A model generated the notes under the pieces. That model had not been told where the DNA came from, made no database searches, and saw only the letters and a list, made by a program, of their open reading frames with translations. The translations under genes were made by a program, and so were the position numbers. 64,000 nucleotides of DNA from Rhodospirillales bacterium URHD0017 (lineage in GTDB: Bacteria > Pseudomonadota > Alphaproteobacteria > Reyranellales > Reyranellaceae), in NCBI GenBank assembly GCA_900110395.1, contig FODP01000006.1, forward strand, positions 292,821 through 356,820, in the 5' to 3' direction. Shown here piece after piece: positions 5,513 through 19,387 of the stretch. Position 1 is the stretch's first letter. Every line of letters starts with the position of its first letter.

Positions 5513-7490
<1,978 letters not shown>

Positions 7491-7503
7491 TTGGACGAGA
7501 GTC

Positions 7504-7646: not shown

Positions 7647-9248
7647 ATGCAGCGAGAGACGATCCAGATCACGGTCGCATCCCTTCTTGCCGGCGCGACG
7701 ATGTGGTCGACCGCTGCCAATGCCGACGTTCCGACGATCATGCCCGCCGTCAAATGTGAAACCTTGGCAGGGACCGCCTTTGCCGGTTCGGCCATGGTGG
7801 TCGAAACGGCTGAGGCCGTGGCGGAAGCGCCGGCGGGAACCGTGCAGATGCGCCCGCCCCTGCCGGACACCGTGGGCGTTGCGATCCCGTCGAATTGCGT
7901 GGTGCGCGGCGTGATCGACCGGCGCGTCGGGGCCGAAGGCAAGACCTATGCGATCGGGTTTGCGATCGCGCTTCCCGATCGCTGGAACGGACGGTTCCTG
8001 TTCCAGGGCGGCGGTGGCTTGAACGGAGCGATCCGGCCGCCGCTCGGCCCGCAGGCGATCGGCGAGGTGCCCGCCCTGGCGCGCGGTTTCGCGGTCGTCT
8101 CCACCGACAGCGGCCATCAAGGCGCCGTGTTCGACGCCTCCTTCATGAAGGACCAGGAGGCGGCGCTCAATTTCGCCCAGGCATCGATCGGCAAGGTGAC
8201 GGCCGCAGCGAAGACGATCATCGCCCACTACTACGGCCAGGGGCCGACGCGCTCCTACTTCGTCGGCTGCTCGACCGGTGGCCGCGAAGGCATGATCGCC
8301 TCGCAGCGCTACCCCGCGGAGTTCGACGGCATCGTCGCCGGCGCGCCGGCCATGCGCACAGGCCGCTCCAATCTCGGACTTGCCTGGGCCAACCACGTCT
8401 TCGCGCAGATCTCCCCCAAAGGCGAGACCGGCAAGCCCGATCCCAGCAAGGCGTTCTCGCCATCGGACCAGAAGCTCGTCACCGACGCCATCGTCGCCGC
8501 CTGCGATGCCAAGGATGGCCTGAAGGACGGCATGATCTTCAACATCCGCCAATGCACCTTCGATCCGGCATCGCTTGCCTGCAGCGGCGCCAAGACCGAT
8601 GCGTGTCTCGCCGCCGATCAGGCGAGTGCGCTTGCCAAGGCCTTCGCCGGCCCGAGGAACTCGCGCGGTGCCCCGTCCTACTCGCCCTTCCCGTGGGACA
8701 GCGGCATCGCTGCCTCGGGCGTTGCGATTCCCGGCATCCTCGTCACCGGCGCGCGCAGTCCGGTCAATCCCAACGTCTACGAGACGATCGATGTCGACGC
8801 CATCGAGGACCGGATGAATGCCGACGGCATGGACCGGCTGCAGGCCACAGCGAGCTGGACCAACCTCAACAGCTTCTTCGGGCGCGGCGGGAAGATCCTG
8901 TTCTATCACGGGGTCAGCGATCCGTGGTTCTCGGCGCTCGACACGATCGACTACTACGAGCGCATGGCGAAGAGCTCGGGCGGCATCGACCAGGTGCGCG
9001 CCAACTCGAGCCGGGCTTTTCTCGTGCCCGGCATGGGCCACTGCCAGACGGGCGCAACCCTCGAGGGCTTCGACCTGCTGCAGGCCGTCGTCAACTGGGT
9101 CGAGCAGGGCAAGGCGCCCGATTCCGTTGTCGCCAAAGGCCCGGCATTCCCCGGCCGCAGCCGGCCGCTTTGCGCCTGGCCGCAATACGCCGCCTACAAG
9201 GGCCAGGGCGATCCCGAGGATGCCGCCAACTTCGAATGCCGTGACTGA
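7647..9248 (+). CDS. Secreted tannase/feruloyl esterase family protein
   Basis: Esterase predicted to hydrolyse ester bonds of plant phenolics (gallate or ferulate esters). The product has 533 residues with a cleavable-looking signal peptide (residues 1 to about 27, ending AANA). The family's catalytic set is visible: nucleophile in GCSTGGREG (Ser209, with the preceding Cys208), Asp425 in HGVSDPWF, and His465-Cys466 in PGMGHCQ. The Cys-Ser / His-Cys pairing is typical of the tannase family, where a disulfide links the two Cys beside the catalytic residues. The ATG at 7647 is preceded by GAGGGAGAG. It diverges from thiC. The true substrate (tannin, feruloyl or aromatic-polyester type) is not decidable. 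Confidence 0.9.
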   Translation: MQRETIQITVASLLAGATMWSTAANADVPTIMPAVKCETLAGTAFAGSAMVVETAEAVAEAPAGTVQMRPPLPDTVGVAIPSNCVVRGVIDRRVGAEGKTYAIGFAIALPDRWNGRFLFQGGGGLNGAIRPPLGPQAIGEVPALARGFAVVSTDSGHQGAVFDASFMKDQEAALNFAQASIGKVTAAAKTIIAHYYGQGPTRSYFVGCSTGGREGMIASQRYPAEFDGIVAGAPAMRTGRSNLGLAWANHVFAQISPKGETGKPDPSKAFSPSDQKLVTDAIVAACDAKDGLKDGMIFNIRQCTFDPASLACSGAKTDACLAADQASALAKAFAGPRNSRGAPSYSPFPWDSGIAASGVAIPGILVTGARSPVNPNVYETIDVDAIEDRMNADGMDRLQATASWTNLNSFFGRGGKILFYHGVSDPWFSALDTIDYYERMAKSSGGIDQVRANSSRAFLVPGMGHCQTGATLEGFDLLQAVVNWVEQGKAPDSVVAKGPAFPGRSRPLCAWPQYAAYKGQGDPEDAANFECRD

Positions 9249-10964: not shown

Positions 10965-13900
10965 TTGGATCGTTGCGTGACGAAGCGCCGCCGTGCGCTG
11001 ACGGCCGGCCTGCTGCTCGGGACCTGTCTGTCGCCCTTGCCGGCCTGGGCCATCGACGTCGCCAACGAGACCCAGCTGCGCAACGCAATCTTCGCGGCCA
11101 ACGGCGGCGGCGACAGCAACATCAACGTCACAACCAACATCACCCTGACGCAGTCGCTGCCGATGATCACGGCAAGCGTCACGGTGACCGGCAATGGCAA
11201 CACGCTCGACGCCAACAATGCCGGCCGCGCCTTCTTCGTGCAGGCCGGCACGGCGTCGGTCTCCAATCTCACGATCAACAACGCCGTGGCGCAGGGCGGC
11301 GCCGGCGGCACGGCCAACAACACGAATGGCGGCGGCGGCGGCGGCGGCCTGGGCGCCGGCGCGGCGGTGTTCGTGAACACCGGCGCGGCTGCCAGCCTCA
11401 CGAACGTGACGGTGGGCAATGCCTCGGCGACCGGCGGCGCGGGCGGCGTCGGCAGCGCCGGCGCCGGCGCCGGCCAGGGCGGCGGCGGCGGTGGCGGCCT
11501 GGGCGGCGCGGGCGGCGCTCCGAGCGGCGGCGGGGGTGGCGGTGGCGGCGGCTATGCCGGAACCGGCGGCGCCAGCGCCGGCGGCGCCAACGGCGGCGGC
11601 GGCGGTGGCGGCGAGTTCGGCACCGGGGGAAGCGCGCTCAGCGTCGGCGGCGGCGGTGGTGCAGGACAACGGGGCAACGGCGGCAGCGGCAACCTCGGCG
11701 GCGGCGGCGGCGGCGGCGCAACGGCGGCCGGACAGAACGCATCAGGCGCCACTGGCGGCGCGGGCGGCGCGCCTCAGGGCGGCCAGGGCGGCAACCTCAC
11801 CGGCGGCGGCCCCGGCGGCACCACTTCTGCCGTTGCCGCGGGGGGCGGCGGCGGCGGCCAGGGCGGCAACAACAACGGCAGCACCGGCGGTGCCGGCTTG
11901 CTTTCCGGCGGTGGCGGCGGCAGTGCGGTCAATGGCGGCACCGGCGGCGCTGGCGGCATCGGTGGCGGTGGCGGCGGCGGCAGCAATGTCCGAAACGGCG
12001 GGGCCGGCGGCGATTTCGGCGGTGGCGGCGGCACGGGCGGGGTCAACGGCGGCAATATCACCGCTGGCCAGGGCGGCTTCGGCGGCGGCGGCGGCGGGGC
12101 AAGCACGGCCGCCGACGTCAACACCTTTCGGGGCGGTCAGGGCGGCTTCGGCGGCGGCGGCGGCGGCGGCCAGGCGGCAGGCGGGGCCGGCACCCTGGGC
12201 GGCGCAGGCGGCGCCGGGTCGGGCGCTGGCGGCGGCGGCGGTGCGGCGCTGGGCGGCGCTTTCTTCGTGCGCGACGGCGGCACGCTCACCGTCAACAACA
12301 GCACTCTTGCGGGCACCTACGGCGTCACCGGCGGCACAGCCGGTGCCGGCGGCGCCGGAGCGGGCCAGGCGCAGGGAACGACGATGTACTTGCAGGGCTC
12401 GGGGGCGACGACGACGCTGAACGTCGGCAGCGGCACGCAGACGCTGTCGGGCGCCGATGCGGTGGCGGGCGGCGGCAACCTTACCAAGAGCGGCGCGGGC
12501 ATCCTGGCGCTCAATGGGGCGAACACGAACTACAGCGGCGTCACGACGGTGACGGGCGGGCTGGTCAACTTCGCGGCGGGCAACAATCTCGGCAGCGGCA
12601 ACGTCACGCTGAACGGCGGCGGCCTGCAATGGGCGACCGGCAACACCACCGACATGTCCTCGCGGCTGAACGCGCTGGGCGCCGGCGGCGGCACCTTCGA
12701 CACCAACGGCAACAACGTGACGCTGGCCACTGCCATCAGCGGCGGTGCGCTCACCAAGCAAGGCACCGGCACGCTGAGCCTCACCGCCACGAACACCAAT
12801 ACCGGCGCCACGACGGTGTCGCAGGGGACGCTGGCGCTATCAGGCAGCAGCAGCATCGGGACCTCGAGTGGTCTGACGGTGGCCAGCGGCGCCACCTTCG
12901 ACACGAGCGCCGTTGTGGGCGTTTCGGCCATCCAGACCCTGGCGGGCGGCGGTACGGTTCAGCTCGGCAACGGCCTGAACCTCATCAACGCCGCAAGCGA
13001 GTTTTCCGGCTCGATCCAGGGCAGCGGTCCCCTCGGGATCGTGGGCGGCACTGAGACCCTTTCCGGTGTCAACACCTACACTGGGATCTCGCTGATCGAC
13101 CCGGGCGCGACGCTGGCGCTCAAGGGCGCGGGCTCCATCGCAGATTCCGCACCCGTCAATTTCAACGGGCTGGGGGGACCAGTCCCCGGGATGTTCGACA
13201 TCTCGCAGACCAACTCCGGCGCCACGGTGTCCGGACTGTTCGATGTCGGTCTCGGACTCGGGCTCGGCGCCGTCGCCCTCGGCGGCAAGACGCTTACCAT
13301 CACGTTCGGGGCGCTGCTCGACGGCGTGATCCAGGATGGCGGGATCGGTGGCGGCGTTGGCGGATCGCTCATCATCTCCGCGCCCGGGGTCGGCGCGACG
13401 CTACGCGGCATCAACACCTACACCGGGTCGACCACGGTTGTCGCGAACGGCCTGCTGGCGCTGTCCGGCAACGGCAGCATCGCCTCGTCGAATGGGCTCA
13501 GCCTGTCGGGGGCGGGCGCCACGTTCGACATCTCGGCCGCCACCGGCAGCGTCACGATCAAGGACCTCTCGGGCGTCGCCGGCTCGACCATCCAGCTCGG
13601 CGGCAATTCCCTGTTCGTCGGCACGGCGAACTCGACGACCTTCGCCGGCGTGATCGACGACAGCAGCGGCCCCGGCGGCGGCCTCGTCAAGCAGGGCAGC
13701 GGCACTCTCACCCTCACCGCCGCCAACACCTACACCGGCGGCACGACGATCAACGCCGGTCTGATCAACTTCAACGCGCTTGCCAACTTCGGCAGCGGCA
13801 ACATCACCCTGAATGGCGGCGGCCTGCAGTGGGCGGCGGGCAACACCGCCGATGTCTCCTCGCGGCTGGTGCTGGCCGGTGGCGGCGCCATGTTCGACAC

Positions 13901-16088
13901 CAATGGCAACAACGTCACCCTCGCCGGCAGCTTCGGTGGCACGGGCGCCCTGACCAAGGCAGGTGCCGGAGTCCTGACGCTCGCGGGCAACAACAGCTAT
14001 GGCGGCGGCACCACCATCACCGGCGGCCTGATCAACTTCGCGGCCACCGGCAATCTCGGCACCGGCCTGGTGACGCTGAACGGCGGCGGCCTGCAGTGGG
14101 CGACCGGCAACACCACCGACATCTCCTCCAAGCTGGCGCCGCTGGGCTCGGGCGGCGGCACCTTCGACACCAACGGCAACAGCGTCACGCTGGCGAGCGC
14201 GATCACCGGCAGCGGCGGCCTGACCAAGGCCGGCCTCGGCACGCTGATCCTCTCGGGCAGCAACAGTTACTCGGGCGGCACGGTCGTGTCCGGCGGCACC
14301 CTGCAGGGCAACAGCTCGACCCTGCAGGGCAACATCCTCAATAACGCCGCCGTGGTGTTCAGCCAGACGGGCAGCGGCACCTATGCCGGCAACATGTCGG
14401 GTAGCGGCAGCCTCGCGCTGCAAGGCGGCAACACGCTCGCCCTCACCGGCGCCAACACCTACATCGGTCCGACGACGGTGACGGGCAGCAAGCTCGTGGT
14501 GAACGGCTCGCTCGCCAGCACGGTGACGCTCGACAGTGCCTCCACGATCGGCGGCAGCGGCACCATCGGCGGACTGGTCTCCAACGGCGGAACGCTGACG
14601 CCCGGCAACTCGATCGGCACCCTGAACATCGCCGGCAACTTCAGCCAGACCGGCGGCATCTACCAGGTCGAGGCCAACGCGCAGGGCCAGGCCGACCGCA
14701 TCAACGCCACCGGCACGGCGACGATCAACGGCGGCACGGTTCAGGTGATCGCGGCGCCCGGCAACTACGGCACCAGCACGACCTATACGATCCTCAGTGC
14801 CACAGGCGGCGTCAGCGGGACCTATTCGAGCGTCACAAGCAACTTCGCGTTCCTGACGCCGAGCCTCACCTACAATGCCAACAACGTGTTCCTGACGCTG
14901 GCCCTGCAGGGCAGCACGCCGTTCTCGGGCTTCGGCGGCAACACCGTAAACCAGCGCGCCGTCGGCTATGCGCTCGACCAGACCTTCGCCGGCGCCACGG
15001 GTGACTTCGCGACCGTGATCGCCGCACTCGCCGGCCTCAACGCCCAGCAGGCGCCGTATATCCTGAACCAGATCAGCGGGCAGCCTTACGCCGACTTCGG
15101 CACCATGAACCTCGCCTCGAATACGCTGTTCATGAACGCGCTCGGCCAGCAGATGGCTTCGGCGCGCGGCAGCACGGCCGGCACCGGCCAGCGTCAGGCC
15201 CTGGCCCAGACCTGCGACGTGGCGGCCTGCGACGCGGCAAGCCCTTTCAGTGTCTGGGCGAGCGGCCTCGGCGGCTTCGGCTCGGTTCAGGGTGACGGCA
15301 ACTCGAACACCTTCACCTACAACATCGGCGGCACGGCCGCCGGCATCGACTACCGCGTGATGCCCAATCTGCTGCTGGGCCTCGGCGCCGGCTACACCAG
15401 CGGCACGCAGTGGGCCGACAGCTTCCAGGGCAAGGGCTGGAACAACGCGGTGAGCGTGGCGGGCTACGGCAGCTTCACCATGGCCGGCTTCTATGCCGAT
15501 CTGCTGGCGGGCTATGCCTACTCGAACAACCAGCTGCAGCGGCAGATCTCGATCCCCGGCCTGCAGCCGCGCACGGCCAACGGCTCGACCGGCGCCAACC
15601 AGTTCCTGGGCCAGGCCGAGATCGGCTATCAGGTGCCGGTCTATGCGCCAGCGCAAGCGAGCATCACGCCGTTCGCGCGGCTGCAGGTGATGAGCGTCAA
15701 TCAGGCGGCGTTCTCGGAGTGGGGCGCCAACAGCCTGAGCCTCAACGTGCAGCAGCAGACCACCAACTCGCTGCGCTCGACCCTGGGCGCTCAGCTCAAC
15801 GGCGCCATCGGGCTCGGCGACACGCGGACCTTGGACATGGCGTTGCGGCTGGGCTGGCTGCACGAGTACGCCTACACCGGCCGGCCTGTCACGGCGGCCT
15901 TCGCCGGCGCGCCGGCAGCGGCCTTCACGGTGTACGGCGCGACGCCGCAGCGTGACGCGGCGGCGATCGGCTTCCAGGCCAGCACCACCGTCGCCGCCGC
16001 CACTCAGGTCTTCTTCCGCTACGACGGCGACATCGGCTCCGGCACCGACAACCACGCGCTGAACGTCGGCCTCAGGCTCAGCTGGTAG
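10965..16088 (+). CDS. Glycine-rich autotransporter (type V secretion) adhesin-like protein
   Basis: A large surface protein of about 1707 residues. Order: signal peptide (to AWA, about residue 28); short beta-helix start (ETQLRNAIFAAN); a long low-complexity Gly/Ala/Asn tract (about 110-440); many autotransporter-associated beta-strand repeats of the form LTK.GAG.L.L.G.NTY.G.TTV..G (about 505-1225); a linker; and a C-terminal autotransporter barrel (about 1427-1707) starting FSVWASGLGGFG and ending in the outer-membrane signature LRLSW. The barrel would insert in the outer membrane and display the passenger. The TTG start at 10965 is chosen because GGGGAG lies 7 bases upstream; a GTG at 10977 is the alternative. 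Probably adhesion or biofilm (inference). Confidence 0.9.
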   Translation: MDRCVTKRRRALTAGLLLGTCLSPLPAWAIDVANETQLRNAIFAANGGGDSNINVTTNITLTQSLPMITASVTVTGNGNTLDANNAGRAFFVQAGTASVSNLTINNAVAQGGAGGTANNTNGGGGGGGLGAGAAVFVNTGAAASLTNVTVGNASATGGAGGVGSAGAGAGQGGGGGGGLGGAGGAPSGGGGGGGGGYAGTGGASAGGANGGGGGGGEFGTGGSALSVGGGGGAGQRGNGGSGNLGGGGGGGATAAGQNASGATGGAGGAPQGGQGGNLTGGGPGGTTSAVAAGGGGGGQGGNNNGSTGGAGLLSGGGGGSAVNGGTGGAGGIGGGGGGGSNVRNGGAGGDFGGGGGTGGVNGGNITAGQGGFGGGGGGASTAADVNTFRGGQGGFGGGGGGGQAAGGAGTLGGAGGAGSGAGGGGGAALGGAFFVRDGGTLTVNNSTLAGTYGVTGGTAGAGGAGAGQAQGTTMYLQGSGATTTLNVGSGTQTLSGADAVAGGGNLTKSGAGILALNGANTNYSGVTTVTGGLVNFAAGNNLGSGNVTLNGGGLQWATGNTTDMSSRLNALGAGGGTFDTNGNNVTLATAISGGALTKQGTGTLSLTATNTNTGATTVSQGTLALSGSSSIGTSSGLTVASGATFDTSAVVGVSAIQTLAGGGTVQLGNGLNLINAASEFSGSIQGSGPLGIVGGTETLSGVNTYTGISLIDPGATLALKGAGSIADSAPVNFNGLGGPVPGMFDISQTNSGATVSGLFDVGLGLGLGAVALGGKTLTITFGALLDGVIQDGGIGGGVGGSLIISAPGVGATLRGINTYTGSTTVVANGLLALSGNGSIASSNGLSLSGAGATFDISAATGSVTIKDLSGVAGSTIQLGGNSLFVGTANSTTFAGVIDDSSGPGGGLVKQGSGTLTLTAANTYTGGTTINAGLINFNALANFGSGNITLNGGGLQWAAGNTADVSSRLVLAGGGAMFDTNGNNVTLAGSFGGTGALTKAGAGVLTLAGNNSYGGGTTITGGLINFAATGNLGTGLVTLNGGGLQWATGNTTDISSKLAPLGSGGGTFDTNGNSVTLASAITGSGGLTKAGLGTLILSGSNSYSGGTVVSGGTLQGNSSTLQGNILNNAAVVFSQTGSGTYAGNMSGSGSLALQGGNTLALTGANTYIGPTTVTGSKLVVNGSLASTVTLDSASTIGGSGTIGGLVSNGGTLTPGNSIGTLNIAGNFSQTGGIYQVEANAQGQADRINATGTATINGGTVQVIAAPGNYGTSTTYTILSATGGVSGTYSSVTSNFAFLTPSLTYNANNVFLTLALQGSTPFSGFGGNTVNQRAVGYALDQTFAGATGDFATVIAALAGLNAQQAPYILNQISGQPYADFGTMNLASNTLFMNALGQQMASARGSTAGTGQRQALAQTCDVAACDAASPFSVWASGLGGFGSVQGDGNSNTFTYNIGGTAAGIDYRVMPNLLLGLGAGYTSGTQWADSFQGKGWNNAVSVAGYGSFTMAGFYADLLAGYAYSNNQLQRQISIPGLQPRTANGSTGANQFLGQAEIGYQVPVYAPAQASITPFARLQVMSVNQAAFSEWGANSLSLNVQQQTTNSLRSTLGAQLNGAIGLGDTRTLDMALRLGWLHEYAYTGRPVTAAFAGAPAAAFTVYGATPQRDAAAIGFQASTTVAAATQVFFRYDGDIGSGTDNHALNVGLRLSW
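11296..12270 (+). repeat. GGC/GGN-rich low-complexity coding tract
   Basis: Nearly one kilobase of glycine codons interrupted by Ala, Asn, Ser and Thr, with repeated blocks such as GGAGGAGG, GGFGGGGGGG and GQGG. The composition resembles the PE_PGRS and similar Gly-rich surface tracts. All codons still fit one open frame. Such DNA is prone to slippage and expansion, so strain-to-strain length variation is expected. Confidence 0.85.
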
Positions 16089-16094
16089 GCTGGT

Positions 16095-17291
16095 CTAGGC
16101 GACCTTGTCGGCGCGCATGGTGGCGATGTCGGCGTCCGAGTAGCCCGCTTCGCGCAGGATCTCGTCGGTGTGCTGGCCGAGCGTCGCCGGCGGCCGGTCG
16201 ACAGATGGGCCGCCATGCTCCATGCGAAAGCCCGAGCCCACGACCTTGATCGGGCCGTGCGGCGTGTCGATGGTCTGCAGTATGGTGCGCCGGTCGAAGT
16301 GGTCGAGCTGCACGGTCTCGGGAATCGAAAGCACGCGGCCGGCCGGCACGTCGGCCTTGGCGAAGCGCTCGGCCCAGGTGGCCGAGGTCTGCTTTACAAG
16401 CTCGGCCTCGATGATGTCGTGCAGCGCCTTGTCGTTGGTGATGCGCGCCGGCCAGTCGGGGAAGCGCGGATCGGCGAGCGCATCGGCGCGGCCGATGTCC
16501 TTCATCAGGCGCTGGAACTGCGGCTCGGTCATGACGGCCAGCACCATCCAACCGTCCTTGGTCTTGTAGAGATCGCCCGTGGGCTTGCGCGTCACCGAGC
16601 GGTTGGCCGCCTGCTCGTGCACGCGGCCGGTCATCATGTGCTCGGTGAACTGCTGGGCGAGATAGCCCATCACCGCGTCGATCATGGCGACGTCGACCAG
16701 TTGGCCCTTGCCGGTATGGGTGCGCTGGTAGAGCGCCGAGGCGACGCCGAGCGCCGCCGTGGCGCCCGACATGACGTCGGCGCCGGCGAAGCCCACGCGC
16801 GTCGGACCGTTGGTTTCGAAGCCGGTGATCGACATCAGGCCGGACATCGCCTGGATCATGCCGTCGAACGCCGCGGTCTCGCGGTCGGGGCCGACCTGGC
16901 CGAAGCCCGAGACGGCGCAGTAGATCAGCCGCGGATTGATCTCCTTCAGGACGTCGTAGCCGATGCCGAGCTTGTCCATGACGCCGGGGCGGAAGTTCTC
17001 CGTCACGACGTCGGCCTTCGCGGCGAGCTTCTTCACCACCTCGATGGCCTTGGGCTTCTTGAGGTCGAGCGTGATCGAGCGCTTGTTCGAGTTGACCGCG
17101 ACCCAGGGCGCGGCAAGCCCGCGCTTCTCCCAGTCGTTGGCGCGGCTGCCGAAGCGCATGTCATCGCCTTCACGGCTTTCGACCTTGATGACGTCGGCAC
17201 CGAGCAGCGCCAGCTGGTAGGTGCCGTAGGGGCCCGCGAGCACGCGCGTGAAGTCGAGGACTTTTACGCCGGTGAAGGGTTTACCAGTCAT
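16095..17291 (-). CDS. CaiB/BaiF family CoA transferase (family III)
   Basis: Transfers CoA between carboxylates through an aspartyl-CoA thioester. The product has 398 residues, the normal length. The N-terminal block VKVLDFTRVLAGPYGTYQLA, the LGADVIKVE nucleotide-fold motif, NSNKRSITLDLK and TENFRPGVMDKLG are all present, and the catalytic Asp is in the FAGADVMSG segment. The gene ends 6 bp from the convergent autotransporter and lies 127 bp downstream of the selenoprotein gene on the same strand, with a palindrome between them. The acyl substrate cannot be told from sequence. A second, diverged member is at 36438-37580. Confidence 0.93.
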   Translation of the reverse strand: MTGKPFTGVKVLDFTRVLAGPYGTYQLALLGADVIKVESREGDDMRFGSRANDWEKRGLAAPWVAVNSNKRSITLDLKKPKAIEVVKKLAAKADVVTENFRPGVMDKLGIGYDVLKEINPRLIYCAVSGFGQVGPDRETAAFDGMIQAMSGLMSITGFETNGPTRVGFAGADVMSGATAALGVASALYQRTHTGKGQLVDVAMIDAVMGYLAQQFTEHMMTGRVHEQAANRSVTRKPTGDLYKTKDGWMVLAVMTEPQFQRLMKDIGRADALADPRFPDWPARITNDKALHDIIEAELVKQTSATWAERFAKADVPAGRVLSIPETVQLDHFDRRTILQTIDTPHGPIKVVGSGFRMEHGGPSVDRPPATLGQHTDEILREAGYSDADIATMRADKVA

Positions 17292-17320
17292 TGAGCTGCG
17301 GACTTCGCAGCCCGCCTCCT

Positions 17321-17394
17321 GTCATCCTGAGCGAAGCGAAGGATCTCATGCCTTGGCAAGCGGCGATGAGGTCCTTCGCTGCGCTCAGGACGAC
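17321..17394. repeat. Dispersed intergenic palindrome, family C (copy 2)
   Basis: Imperfect inverted repeat of about 30-base arms: left arm begins GTCATCCTGAGCGAAGCG, right arm ends CTGCGCTCAGGACGAC. It is almost identical to 56513-56587 and related to 5419-5486. It lies between the 3' end of the selenoprotein gene and the 5' end of the CoA transferase gene, and could separate their transcripts. Confidence 0.85.
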
Positions 17395-17418
17395 ACGTTG
17401 TTGCCTTGGCAGCGTGCA

Positions 17419-18345
17419 CTACGCGACGCCCGCCTTCTTGCGCTGCTCGAGCGCGGTCTGCTTCACCTTGTCGAACTCCGCGCGGCGCTTGGCGACCTCC
17501 GCGGGCGGCATGCGCTCGAGGTTGTTGTAGTCGTTCTTCCAGTCGCCGTCCTCGGTCCAGCGCAGGGGAGACTGCACCGTGGTGCGCGGTCCGACCGCGC
17601 TCTCCAGCACCTTGAGCGCCAGGTCGAGCGTGAAGCGCTGCGTGTCGGGCTCGTGCGGCTTGCCGCAGGAATTGCCGAGCGGGAAATCGCTGAACAGGAA
17701 GCGCGGCACGCCGGTGTGCTCGACGATGTCCTTGGCCGCACCCATGACCACCGTCGGGATGCCGTTCCGTTCGAGATAACGGGCGACCAGACTCACGGTC
17801 TGGTGGCAGACGGGTCAAGTCGGCACCAGCAGCGCGGCATCGACCTGGTCCTGCCGGCAGCGCGCCAGGATCTCCGGTGCATCGGTCTCCAAGGTCACGC
17901 GCTGGCTGCGGTTGGTCGGCGCGCCATGGAAACGCTTGGCGAGCTTGAAGCGGCCGGCGGCCGCGAATTCGCGCATCAGCGGCAGCGGGAACCAGGTGTT
18001 GGAATCCTTGGCCGTGGTGTGCTTGCGGTCGTAGCCGATATGGGAGATGCGCGTGTCGTGGTCGACGGCGGTGTCGCCGGAATAGACCGTGTAGAACTTG
18101 GCGCCGGCGTTGTAGGCGGCCCCCGGGCCCTGGTCGCCCTTGTCCGGCTGATAGGGCGCCGCGGTGCTGATCAGCACCAGCGTCGAGTCCGTCAACGGCT
18201 TCTTCAGCGGCTGGAACGGCGCATCGACATAGTGCGCCCAGCGGTAGGGATTGTCGTAGCCCAGCGCGAGGTAGTACTCGCGCGTGCGGCGCATGTACTC
18301 GATCGGGGCGTCGAAGTCCGGCGCGAATTGAGCGGTGTCGGCCAT
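17419..18345 (-). CDS. GrdB/PrdB-like selenoprotein B family protein (in-frame UGA = selenocysteine)
   Basis: Resembles the glycine/sarcosine/betaine reductase selenoprotein B family. Reading from ATG 18345 the frame runs 176 codons to a TGA (17817-17815) and then stays open for another 131 codons to TAG, with no frame change. The residues around the TGA are LLVPT-U-PVCHQTVSLVARYL, so Sec177 and Cys180 form a U-x2-C redox pair, and the second half (ERNGIPTVVMG, FPLGNSCGKP) continues the same fold. A hairpin with a GU-containing apical loop follows at the distance seen in bacterial SECIS elements. The total is 308 residues. It probably reduces or cleaves a small substrate via the selenol; substrate unknown. 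Automatic annotation would split it in two or call it a pseudogene. It diverges from the Bug gene at 18428. Confidence 0.85.
17786..17804 (-). promoter_or_regulatory. Candidate bacterial SECIS element
   Basis: Minus-strand hairpin ACCAGAC-CGTGA-GTCTGGT, a perfect 7-bp stem with a 5-nt loop. The loop lies 18-22 nt after the UGA and contains GU, as in the E. coli fdhF SECIS, whose apical GU is about 20 nt downstream of the UGA. SelB recognition of this loop would permit selenocysteine insertion. The stem also encodes part of HQTVSLV. Confidence 0.75.
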
Positions 18346-18427: not shown

Positions 18428-19387
18428 TTGAGCAGGCTGACACGCCGTACCACCCTGGGCGCCGCCATCGCCATGGCCACGGGGCCTGCTGTCGCCCAGC
18501 TCAAGCCCCTGCACATCATGCTCGGCGTTCCGCCGGGCGCCAGTCTCGACGCCATCACCCGCGTGGTCGCCGAGAAGATGACCCGCACGCTCGGCCGCTC
18601 GGTCGTGGTCGAGAACAAGACCGGCGCCGGCGGCATCGTCGCCAACATGGCGGTGAAGCAGGCCGCAGCCGACGGCAACACGCTGCTCATGACGCCGCTC
18701 GCCACGATGGTGGCGTTCCCGCATTCCTACAGCCGGCTCGACTACGACCCGTTCAGAGACTACGCCCCGGTGGCGCATATCGCGTCGTTCCAGCTCGCGT
18801 TCGCCGTCGGGCCCAGGGTGCCGGCGACGACACTGGCGGAATACGTCGCGCTCGCGAAGAAAGGCGGCCCGGTCACCGACTTCGCGACACCGGCGCCCGG
18901 CAGCCTGCCGCACTTTTTCGGCCTGATGTTCGCCAGGGCCGCCGGCATCGAGCTGACGCATATCCCCTACAAGGGCGGCGCGCCGGCCATGCAGGCGCTG
19001 CTGTCGGGCGAGATCGCCGCGGCCGTGCTCACCCTCACCGACCTCGGCCAGCAGGCGCGCTCGGGCAAGGTGCACGTGTTGGCGACGTCCGGCGACAGCC
19101 GCTCGCCGCAGTATCCCGAGTTCCCGACCTTCAAGGAGAGCGGCTACGCCATCGAGGGCTCGGGCTGGTACGCCCTGTTCGCGCCGGCCGGAACGCCGCG
19201 CGATGTCGTGGACCAGCTGGCGAGAGCCGCGATCGACGCTGTAAAGCAACCCGATGTGAAACAACGCTTCGATCCGATCGGGCTCGAGGCTACGGGGCTT
19301 GGCCCGGCCGAACTCGCCGCCATCCTGCGCGCCGACTACGACAAGTGGGGCCCGATCATCCGGGCCTCGGGCTTCAAGGCGGACTGA
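18428..19387 (+). CDS. Bug-family (TctC-like) periplasmic solute-binding protein
   Basis: Tripartite tricarboxylate transporter-type receptor of 319 residues. The start is a TTG, the only reasonable one in frame before the signal (MSRLTRRTTLGAAIAMATG), which has a twin-arginine look. The family features LGVPPGASLDAITRVVAEK, VVVENKTGAGGIVANMAV, HIPYKGGAPAMQALLSGEI and FAPAGTPRDVVDQL are present. No TctA or TctB membrane partner is nearby, which is common for Bug proteins. They bind small carboxylates or related compounds; the ligand is unknown. It diverges from the selenoprotein gene across 82 bp. Confidence 0.88.
   Translation: MSRLTRRTTLGAAIAMATGPAVAQLKPLHIMLGVPPGASLDAITRVVAEKMTRTLGRSVVVENKTGAGGIVANMAVKQAAADGNTLLMTPLATMVAFPHSYSRLDYDPFRDYAPVAHIASFQLAFAVGPRVPATTLAEYVALAKKGGPVTDFATPAPGSLPHFFGLMFARAAGIELTHIPYKGGAPAMQALLSGEIAAAVLTLTDLGQQARSGKVHVLATSGDSRSPQYPEFPTFKESGYAIEGSGWYALFAPAGTPRDVVDQLARAAIDAVKQPDVKQRFDPIGLEATGLGPAELAAILRADYDKWGPIIRASGFKAD

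Follow-up and report, generated by a model that had tools for sequence, protein, structure and literature searches.

The window analyzed here, a 64-kb stretch of a 488-kb contig in a source genome of 8.18 Mb and 62 contigs, is predicted with very high confidence to contain a gene for a PrdB/GrdB-like selenoprotein of 308 amino acids (17419..18345, minus strand), in which residue 177 is almost certainly selenocysteine (Sec). The frame extends from an ATG at 18345-18343 to a TAG at 17421-17419 (308 codons), and its sole in-frame stop is the TGA (UGA) at 17817-17815 on the minus strand, codon 177, which is followed by 131 further codons. The sequence around this codon, LLVPT-U-PVCHQT, places Sec177 together with Cys180 (codon 17806..17808, minus strand) as the two halves of a U-x-x-C pair. 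The interruption of the frame by this TGA alone, the U-x2-C motif and the length of the downstream part had been described in the initial annotation, and all are borne out by reading the sequence. A split into two fragments by standard gene callers, also expected there, is seen in both ORF lists: under the standard code the ORF list gives 18705-17815 and 17796-17419, and separate gene calling with the same code gives 18345-17815 and 17796-17419. At this G+C content, an open frame by itself would mean little, and it is conservation that raises this frame above chance.

Homologs were searched in 121 genomes (the source genome and related ones), 75 of which had a match. The ortholog level was set at E <= 1.6e-130, and a fragment covering residues 1-85 only (G059) was kept out of the count, as were all paralog-level matches. 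At this level there are 70 matches, with exactly one stop, a TGA, in 64 and no stop in six. The genus of the window accounts for 60 of the 70 (54 with the TGA and six without), and the other ten, found elsewhere, all have the TGA. The codon itself was read in 48 of the 70 orthologs, being TGA in 42 and a Cys codon (TGC or TGT) in six, all aligned with codon 177; the UGA is thus conserved at a place where homologs have Cys, in agreement with the earlier expectation of Sec or Cys at this residue. The gene could instead be a pseudogene or the product of an error, with the TGA as a nonsense mutation or a base-calling slip and the downstream half decaying. An in-frame stop that splits the frame under the standard code is indeed the usual sign of a pseudogene, but the same single TGA in 64 of the 70 orthologs, the presence of the sel genes and the length of 308 codons in all 42 rows above 80% identity (36 with TGA and six with Cys, one genome being entered twice) argue against this reading. 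Furthermore, dN/dS against the window gene has a median of 0.16 before the TGA and 0.12 after it (34 Sec orthologs), low values that indicate purifying selection on both halves. A sequencing slip is excluded by the recurrence of the TGA in dozens of other genomes, and judging from these comparisons the pseudogene reading is in practice refuted by conservation, its probability being negligible.

The six Cys orthologs (L054-L059) have the sequence VPN-C-PVCHQT at the motif. In a scan of named genomes, with Bradyrhizobium, Rhodopseudomonas, and Belnapia among them, 80 homologs were kept from 107, and all have Cys. This count is uninformative on the frequency of Sec, since the scan pattern demanded Cys at this codon; L094, a member of the 80, duplicates one of the six Cys orthologs. 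In a draw of Pseudomonadota, the family was found in 16 of 398 genomes, two of them of the genus of the window and with the TGA, and the other 14 without a stop. Cys180 is invariant across an alignment of 37 rows, and Asp takes its place in two distant paralogs of a 17-member alignment. With the Sec/Cys column masked, a tree of 88 proteins, which takes in 30 of the 80 named Cys loci and omits short rows and those below 41% identity, needs five Sec/Cys changes. The six Cys orthologs of the genus form one group in this tree (98/62), next to the Sec clade, an arrangement compatible with either direction of Sec/Cys change.

The source genome contains genes for selenocysteine decoding, with tRNA-Sec of anticodon tca (UCA), SelA, SelB, and SelD. 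The tRNA-Sec (71.5 bits) is clustered on contig C21 with selB (448.6 bits, cut-off 242.25) and selA (564.8 bits, cut-off 267.9), and selD (377.1 bits, cut-off 125) is located on the same contig as the window, 26 kb to the left of the window start. The search for sel genes that had been suggested as a check therefore finds tRNA-Sec(tca), selA, and selB in one cluster and selD elsewhere. The tRNA-Sec model also scored a tRNA-Ser(tga), at 50.1 bits against a cut-off of 47, and the two were separated by ARAGORN; the sel families also match weakly in control genomes, so the argument on the machinery is carried by the cut-offs and the anticodon. Within the genus, SelB is above its cut-off in 62 of 65 genomes, including those of all six Cys orthologs. 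A selC gene nested in selB has been described in Alphaproteobacteria (Mukai 2021, PMC8124441); this arrangement was considered for the source genome and rejected, as the selB frame stops 32 nt before the tRNA match. With the machinery present and Cys or Sec at residue 177 of the homologs, the proposal of an in-frame UGA selenoprotein is supported, and none of the contrary observations named with it that could be looked for here was made.

A SECIS-like hairpin follows the TGA (17783..17807, minus strand), with a 7-bp stem that starts ten bases past the TGA (17798-17804 with 17786-17792), a CGUGA loop (17793-17797), and two lower pairs. Across 40 distinct Sec sequences, whose protein identity to the window protein goes down to about 30%, standard pairs fill 96.1% of the pair cells, and double (compensatory) changes occur at four pairs. 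The covariation score of 0.206 was reached by none of 500 shuffles, and controls with slid partners were 20-34% paired, with covariation scores of at most 0.089; for the count of further pair types, another measure of covariation, 28 of 500 shuffles reached the observed value. Of 64 Sec rows, which represent 62 distinct genes because two were entered twice, 63 have the apex CCGTG[A/G]G, as do three of the 80 named Cys homologs but none of the six Cys orthologs. Pairing of the hairpin is 72% in these six Cys orthologs, five of which have a broken loop-closing pair, and all of which have a break in the pair next to it. A covariance model trained on the Sec sequences gives 74.7 bits for the window, 44.5-47.7 for three Sec genes of the C15 type, and 14.7-35.7 for Cys genes. 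On the whole genome, only the three paralogs scored above noise with this model, in a scan that had all three in its training set and scored 150 of 8,229 first-look candidates.

The folding energy of the hairpin has a z of -1.9 (56 nt) or -3.0 (37 nt) against dinucleotide shuffles. Against synonymous recodings, folding was no better than expected, with a mean z of -0.16 in 37 Sec orthologs and +0.46 in the six Cys orthologs, and the recoding z of the two groups differs with a Mann-Whitney p of 0.006 when related sequences are counted singly. Since it does not separate the hairpin from recodings with synonymous codons, plain folding energy was dropped as a SECIS test, and the case rests on covariation and on the loss in the Cys orthologs. 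Six or seven of the seven stem pairs are still present in 33 of the 80 named Cys homologs, and part of the stem pairing exists because the encoded peptide dictates it. With these caveats on the energy and the covariance model, the hairpin just 3' of the UGA is taken as the SECIS element, by its position, its loop, its covariation, and the loss of its apex in the Cys orthologs.

The UGA could also act as a regulated stop in a gene of two products, with a protein of 176 residues made when selenium is lacking and the full-length selenoprotein when it is available. Release factor 2 competes with UGA recoding, and a recoding efficiency of 30-40% in vivo is reported (PMC4513850). This reading is nevertheless very improbable, considering the conserved redox pair at the stop and the long conserved C-terminal half after it, and the short form is without any sign of function.

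The best curated match of the selenoprotein is the PrdB model TIGR04483, with 79.2 bits over residues 44-250, which misses the cut-off of 300. The next models are GrdF, GrdH, TIGR01918, and GrdB, at 36.5-40.8 bits; TIGR01918 gives 38.1 bits (cut-off 65.45) and Pfam GRDB (PF07355) gives 20 bits (gathering cut-off 22), both also missed. PrdB is also matched by each of the 17 relatives tested (E 0.001 or better), and the Sec of PrdB from A. noterae and P. acidaminophilum, in AG-U-GTCHRS, aligns with U177. The window protein shares with PrdB a U-x-x-C-H motif whose Sec falls in the same alignment column, but it exceeds the 238-position model by about 70 residues, its identity to PrdB encoded on clostridial and lactobacillar plasmids is about 29-31%, and no PrdA/GrdE-type gene was detected in its genome. 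With GrdB (PF07355, TIGR01917, TIGR01918) it shares the U-x-x-C and a match of residues 84-255 to positions 253-428 of TIGR01918; unlike GrdB, it lacks a part corresponding to model positions up to about 250, and no GrdE was found. For the UGSC family (NF041046), the window protein has no match at E 0.001, and one of the 17 relatives matches (4e-4). Two related proteins are annotated at NCBI as glycine/sarcosine/betaine reductase selenoprotein B family protein, one of Roseomonas haemaphysalidis (64% identical over 93%) and one of Haematobacter massiliensis (57% identical over 99%), both on plasmids and with Cys where the window protein has Sec. By these comparisons, the window protein is homologous to PrdB/GrdB and is not a member of either family by the curated cut-offs. 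The name GrdB-like, given in the initial annotation, is acceptable for homology, with the qualification that among curated families PrdB is nearer than GrdB and that both cut-offs are missed; it is misleading as a statement of function.

Glycine and D-proline reductases work with a pyruvoyl subunit, GrdE or PrdA. The family that covers both subunits, PF09338, was not found in the source genome, nor in any of the 398 drawn Pseudomonadota genomes, a draw that matches the one used for the selenoprotein family (16 carriers of 398) in the 20 of 398 rows listed; as a positive control, two clostridial records gave five and three matches. The absence of PF09338 from the genome and from the sample, together with the positive control, indicates that the window protein most likely works without a pyruvoyl subunit. 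That it is instead a true PrdB/GrdB subunit of a D-proline or glycine-type reductase, acting with a pyruvoyl subunit and a dithiol donor, is improbable: PrdB is the best match, followed by the GrdF, GrdH, and GrdB models, the 17 relatives agree in this, and the Sec residues are aligned, but the scores lie far below the curated cut-offs, identity to clostridial PrdB is low, and PF09338 is missing from the genomes searched while being detected in the clostridial control. The window protein is probably a stand-alone selenol/thiol enzyme and not a proline or glycine reductase, as far as can be told from sequence comparison. With no pyruvoyl subunit detected in the genomes sampled, caution is advised with names that refer to proline or glycine reductase.

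An AlphaFold2 model of the window protein, made from 37 sequences, has a pLDDT of 82.1 and a pTM of 0.85; in it, a strand (170-174) precedes residue 177 and a helix (180-193) follows. No significant fold match was obtained for this model, with a best Foldseek E of 0.033 and a best VIA Z of 7.9, none reaching 8, and middling rows of Rossmann-like and LacI-like folds were taken as uninformative. The Asp/Glu-racemase-like fold, which would be expected from a strand-Cys-helix motif, is not among the matches listed. A search of solved structures with the sequence of the window protein gave no row at E <= 1, and the rows obtained with the 17-member profile (four) and with clostridial PrdB (eight) were read as chance.

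Directly downstream of the selenoprotein gene, at a distance of 127 nt, there is a gene for a CaiB-type family III CoA-transferase (16095..17291, minus strand; PF02515, 397.5 bits). Of 20 ortholog loci, 13 have a CaiB gene in this position, and these 13 represent more than one genus; of the remaining loci, one has a distant CaiB (32%) and six have none. The CaiB gene is a probable operon partner of the selenoprotein gene, as suggested by this arrangement, and the two proteins would probably act in the same pathway. Two facing GTCCTGAGCGNAGCGAAGGA-like copies were seen by eye between the two genes (17300-17400), in what looks like an intergenic inverted repeat. On the other side, the divergent neighbor encodes a TctC-type solute-binding protein (18428..19387, plus strand; PF03401, 199.9 bits), and this position is mostly occupied by a low-identity relative, or by none, in the ortholog loci. 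Across 120 loci compared, the commonest neighbor clusters were SLT transglycosylase, TctC, ClpA-like ATPase, FemAB-like, and others, which look like species synteny and were set aside as functional partners.

The frequent CaiB neighbor also bears on the proposal that the enzyme carries out, with CaiB, the reductive cleavage of a C-X bond in a CoA-linked or carboxylic substrate, in the manner of FarB, and is not a general thiol-disulfide enzyme. The GrdB relatives FarB/FarE have been proposed to break the C-F bond of fluoroacetate (PMC10838667), and the CaiB gene in 13 of 20 loci and more than one genus would fit a CoA-linked substrate. Against it, CaiB is absent from six of the 20 loci, and FarB is described as encoded with FarE, a relative of GrdE, of which no counterpart was found in the source genome or in the 398 Pseudomonadota. 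C-X cleavage is accordingly rather unlikely, though a real contender.

Additionally, the source genome has two paralogs of the window gene, 50% and 34% identical to it and with one TGA each at the same motif. Downstream of the second paralog, on contig C20 (L074:6851-8639, minus strand), come a RidA-type gene (PF01042) and a gene of the acetamidase/formamidase type (PF03069). The third PrdB-like paralog, on contig C15, is immediately preceded by a peroxiredoxin-like gene (L075:7533-8186, plus strand) with its own in-frame TGA at position 7779, in FFRGSW-U-PYCRHEL, which makes two adjacent selenoprotein genes; this pair, with a TGA in both members, occurs in three of nine loci of the C15-type paralog. 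With the three PrdB-like paralogs and the peroxiredoxin-like gene, the genome has at least four Sec-type TGA genes other than formate dehydrogenase. Other paralogs are found in tandem (L090:6340-8427, minus strand; also L211 and L214), one with U-PVCHQT and the other with U-PLDHQT, where Asp stands for the second Cys, and a glutaredoxin gene follows in all three loci that hold both genes. These redox partners, peroxiredoxin-like and glutaredoxin, adjoin the paralogs and not the window gene.

The U-x-x-C pair and the neighbors of the paralogs point to thiol/selenol redox chemistry, and here a mechanism is proposed on this basis. By analogy with the established route of Sec insertion in bacteria, SelB would bind the hairpin and bring Sec-tRNA-Sec to the UGA. 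Sec177 and Cys180 would form a U-x-x-C pair between strand and helix, at the position of the Sec of clostridial PrdB, in which the selenolate of Sec177 could act as the nucleophile on a small substrate, and Cys180 could then resolve the adduct to a selenenyl-sulfide, which a thiol carrier of the glutaredoxin or thioredoxin type would reduce again. The protein would carry out these steps without a pyruvoyl GrdE/PrdA. Taken as a whole, with the selenoprotein and the delivery and redox steps, this explanation is considered likely; for the stand-alone selenol/thiol redox role in particular, the sequence evidence leaves the chances about even.

Sec-type "PrdB" proteins with U-x-x-C have been known since 2005, and the window gene adds a member. 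The Sargasso Sea data were reported to contain 42 Sec "PrdB" genes with U-x-x-C (PMC1088965), and the GOS data of 2008 contained 235 Sec and 110 Cys forms, placed under pfam07355 (PMC2398784); the likeness of these marine proteins to the window protein is in the U-x-x-C and is drawn from their published description rather than from sequence comparison. A 2006 survey credits the Sec-decoding alpha- and betaproteobacteria and Pseudomonadales that it covered with a single selenoprotein, formate dehydrogenase (PMC1794560). Among the papers listed in a literature search, no title or abstract opening mentions a proteobacterial PrdB/GrdB-like selenoprotein, of Reyranella or other genera, without a pyruvoyl partner. 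The lineage of the window, the paralog lines, and the missing pyruvoyl partner were likewise not seen described among the papers listed. It is an evenly poised proposition that the proteobacterial PrdB/GrdB-like Sec proteins, and perhaps also the marine "PrdB" proteins, constitute a separate pyruvoyl-free selenol/thiol family rather than amino-acid reductases, with paralog lines tied to CaiB, to a peroxiredoxin-type selenoprotein, and to glutaredoxin, and with Sec/Cys swaps within one genus that keeps its Sec machinery. Genes of this kind are split by standard gene calling, and the genus offers a natural comparison of 54 genes with the TGA versus six without it, in which the Cys genes have lost the hairpin apex while their genomes keep selB.

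Two other features were observed in the window. A TPP riboswitch is located at 7381-7501 on the minus strand (71.6 bits), and a large Gly-rich protein of about 1,700 amino acids, autotransporter-like by eye, is encoded at 10977-16088 on the plus strand.
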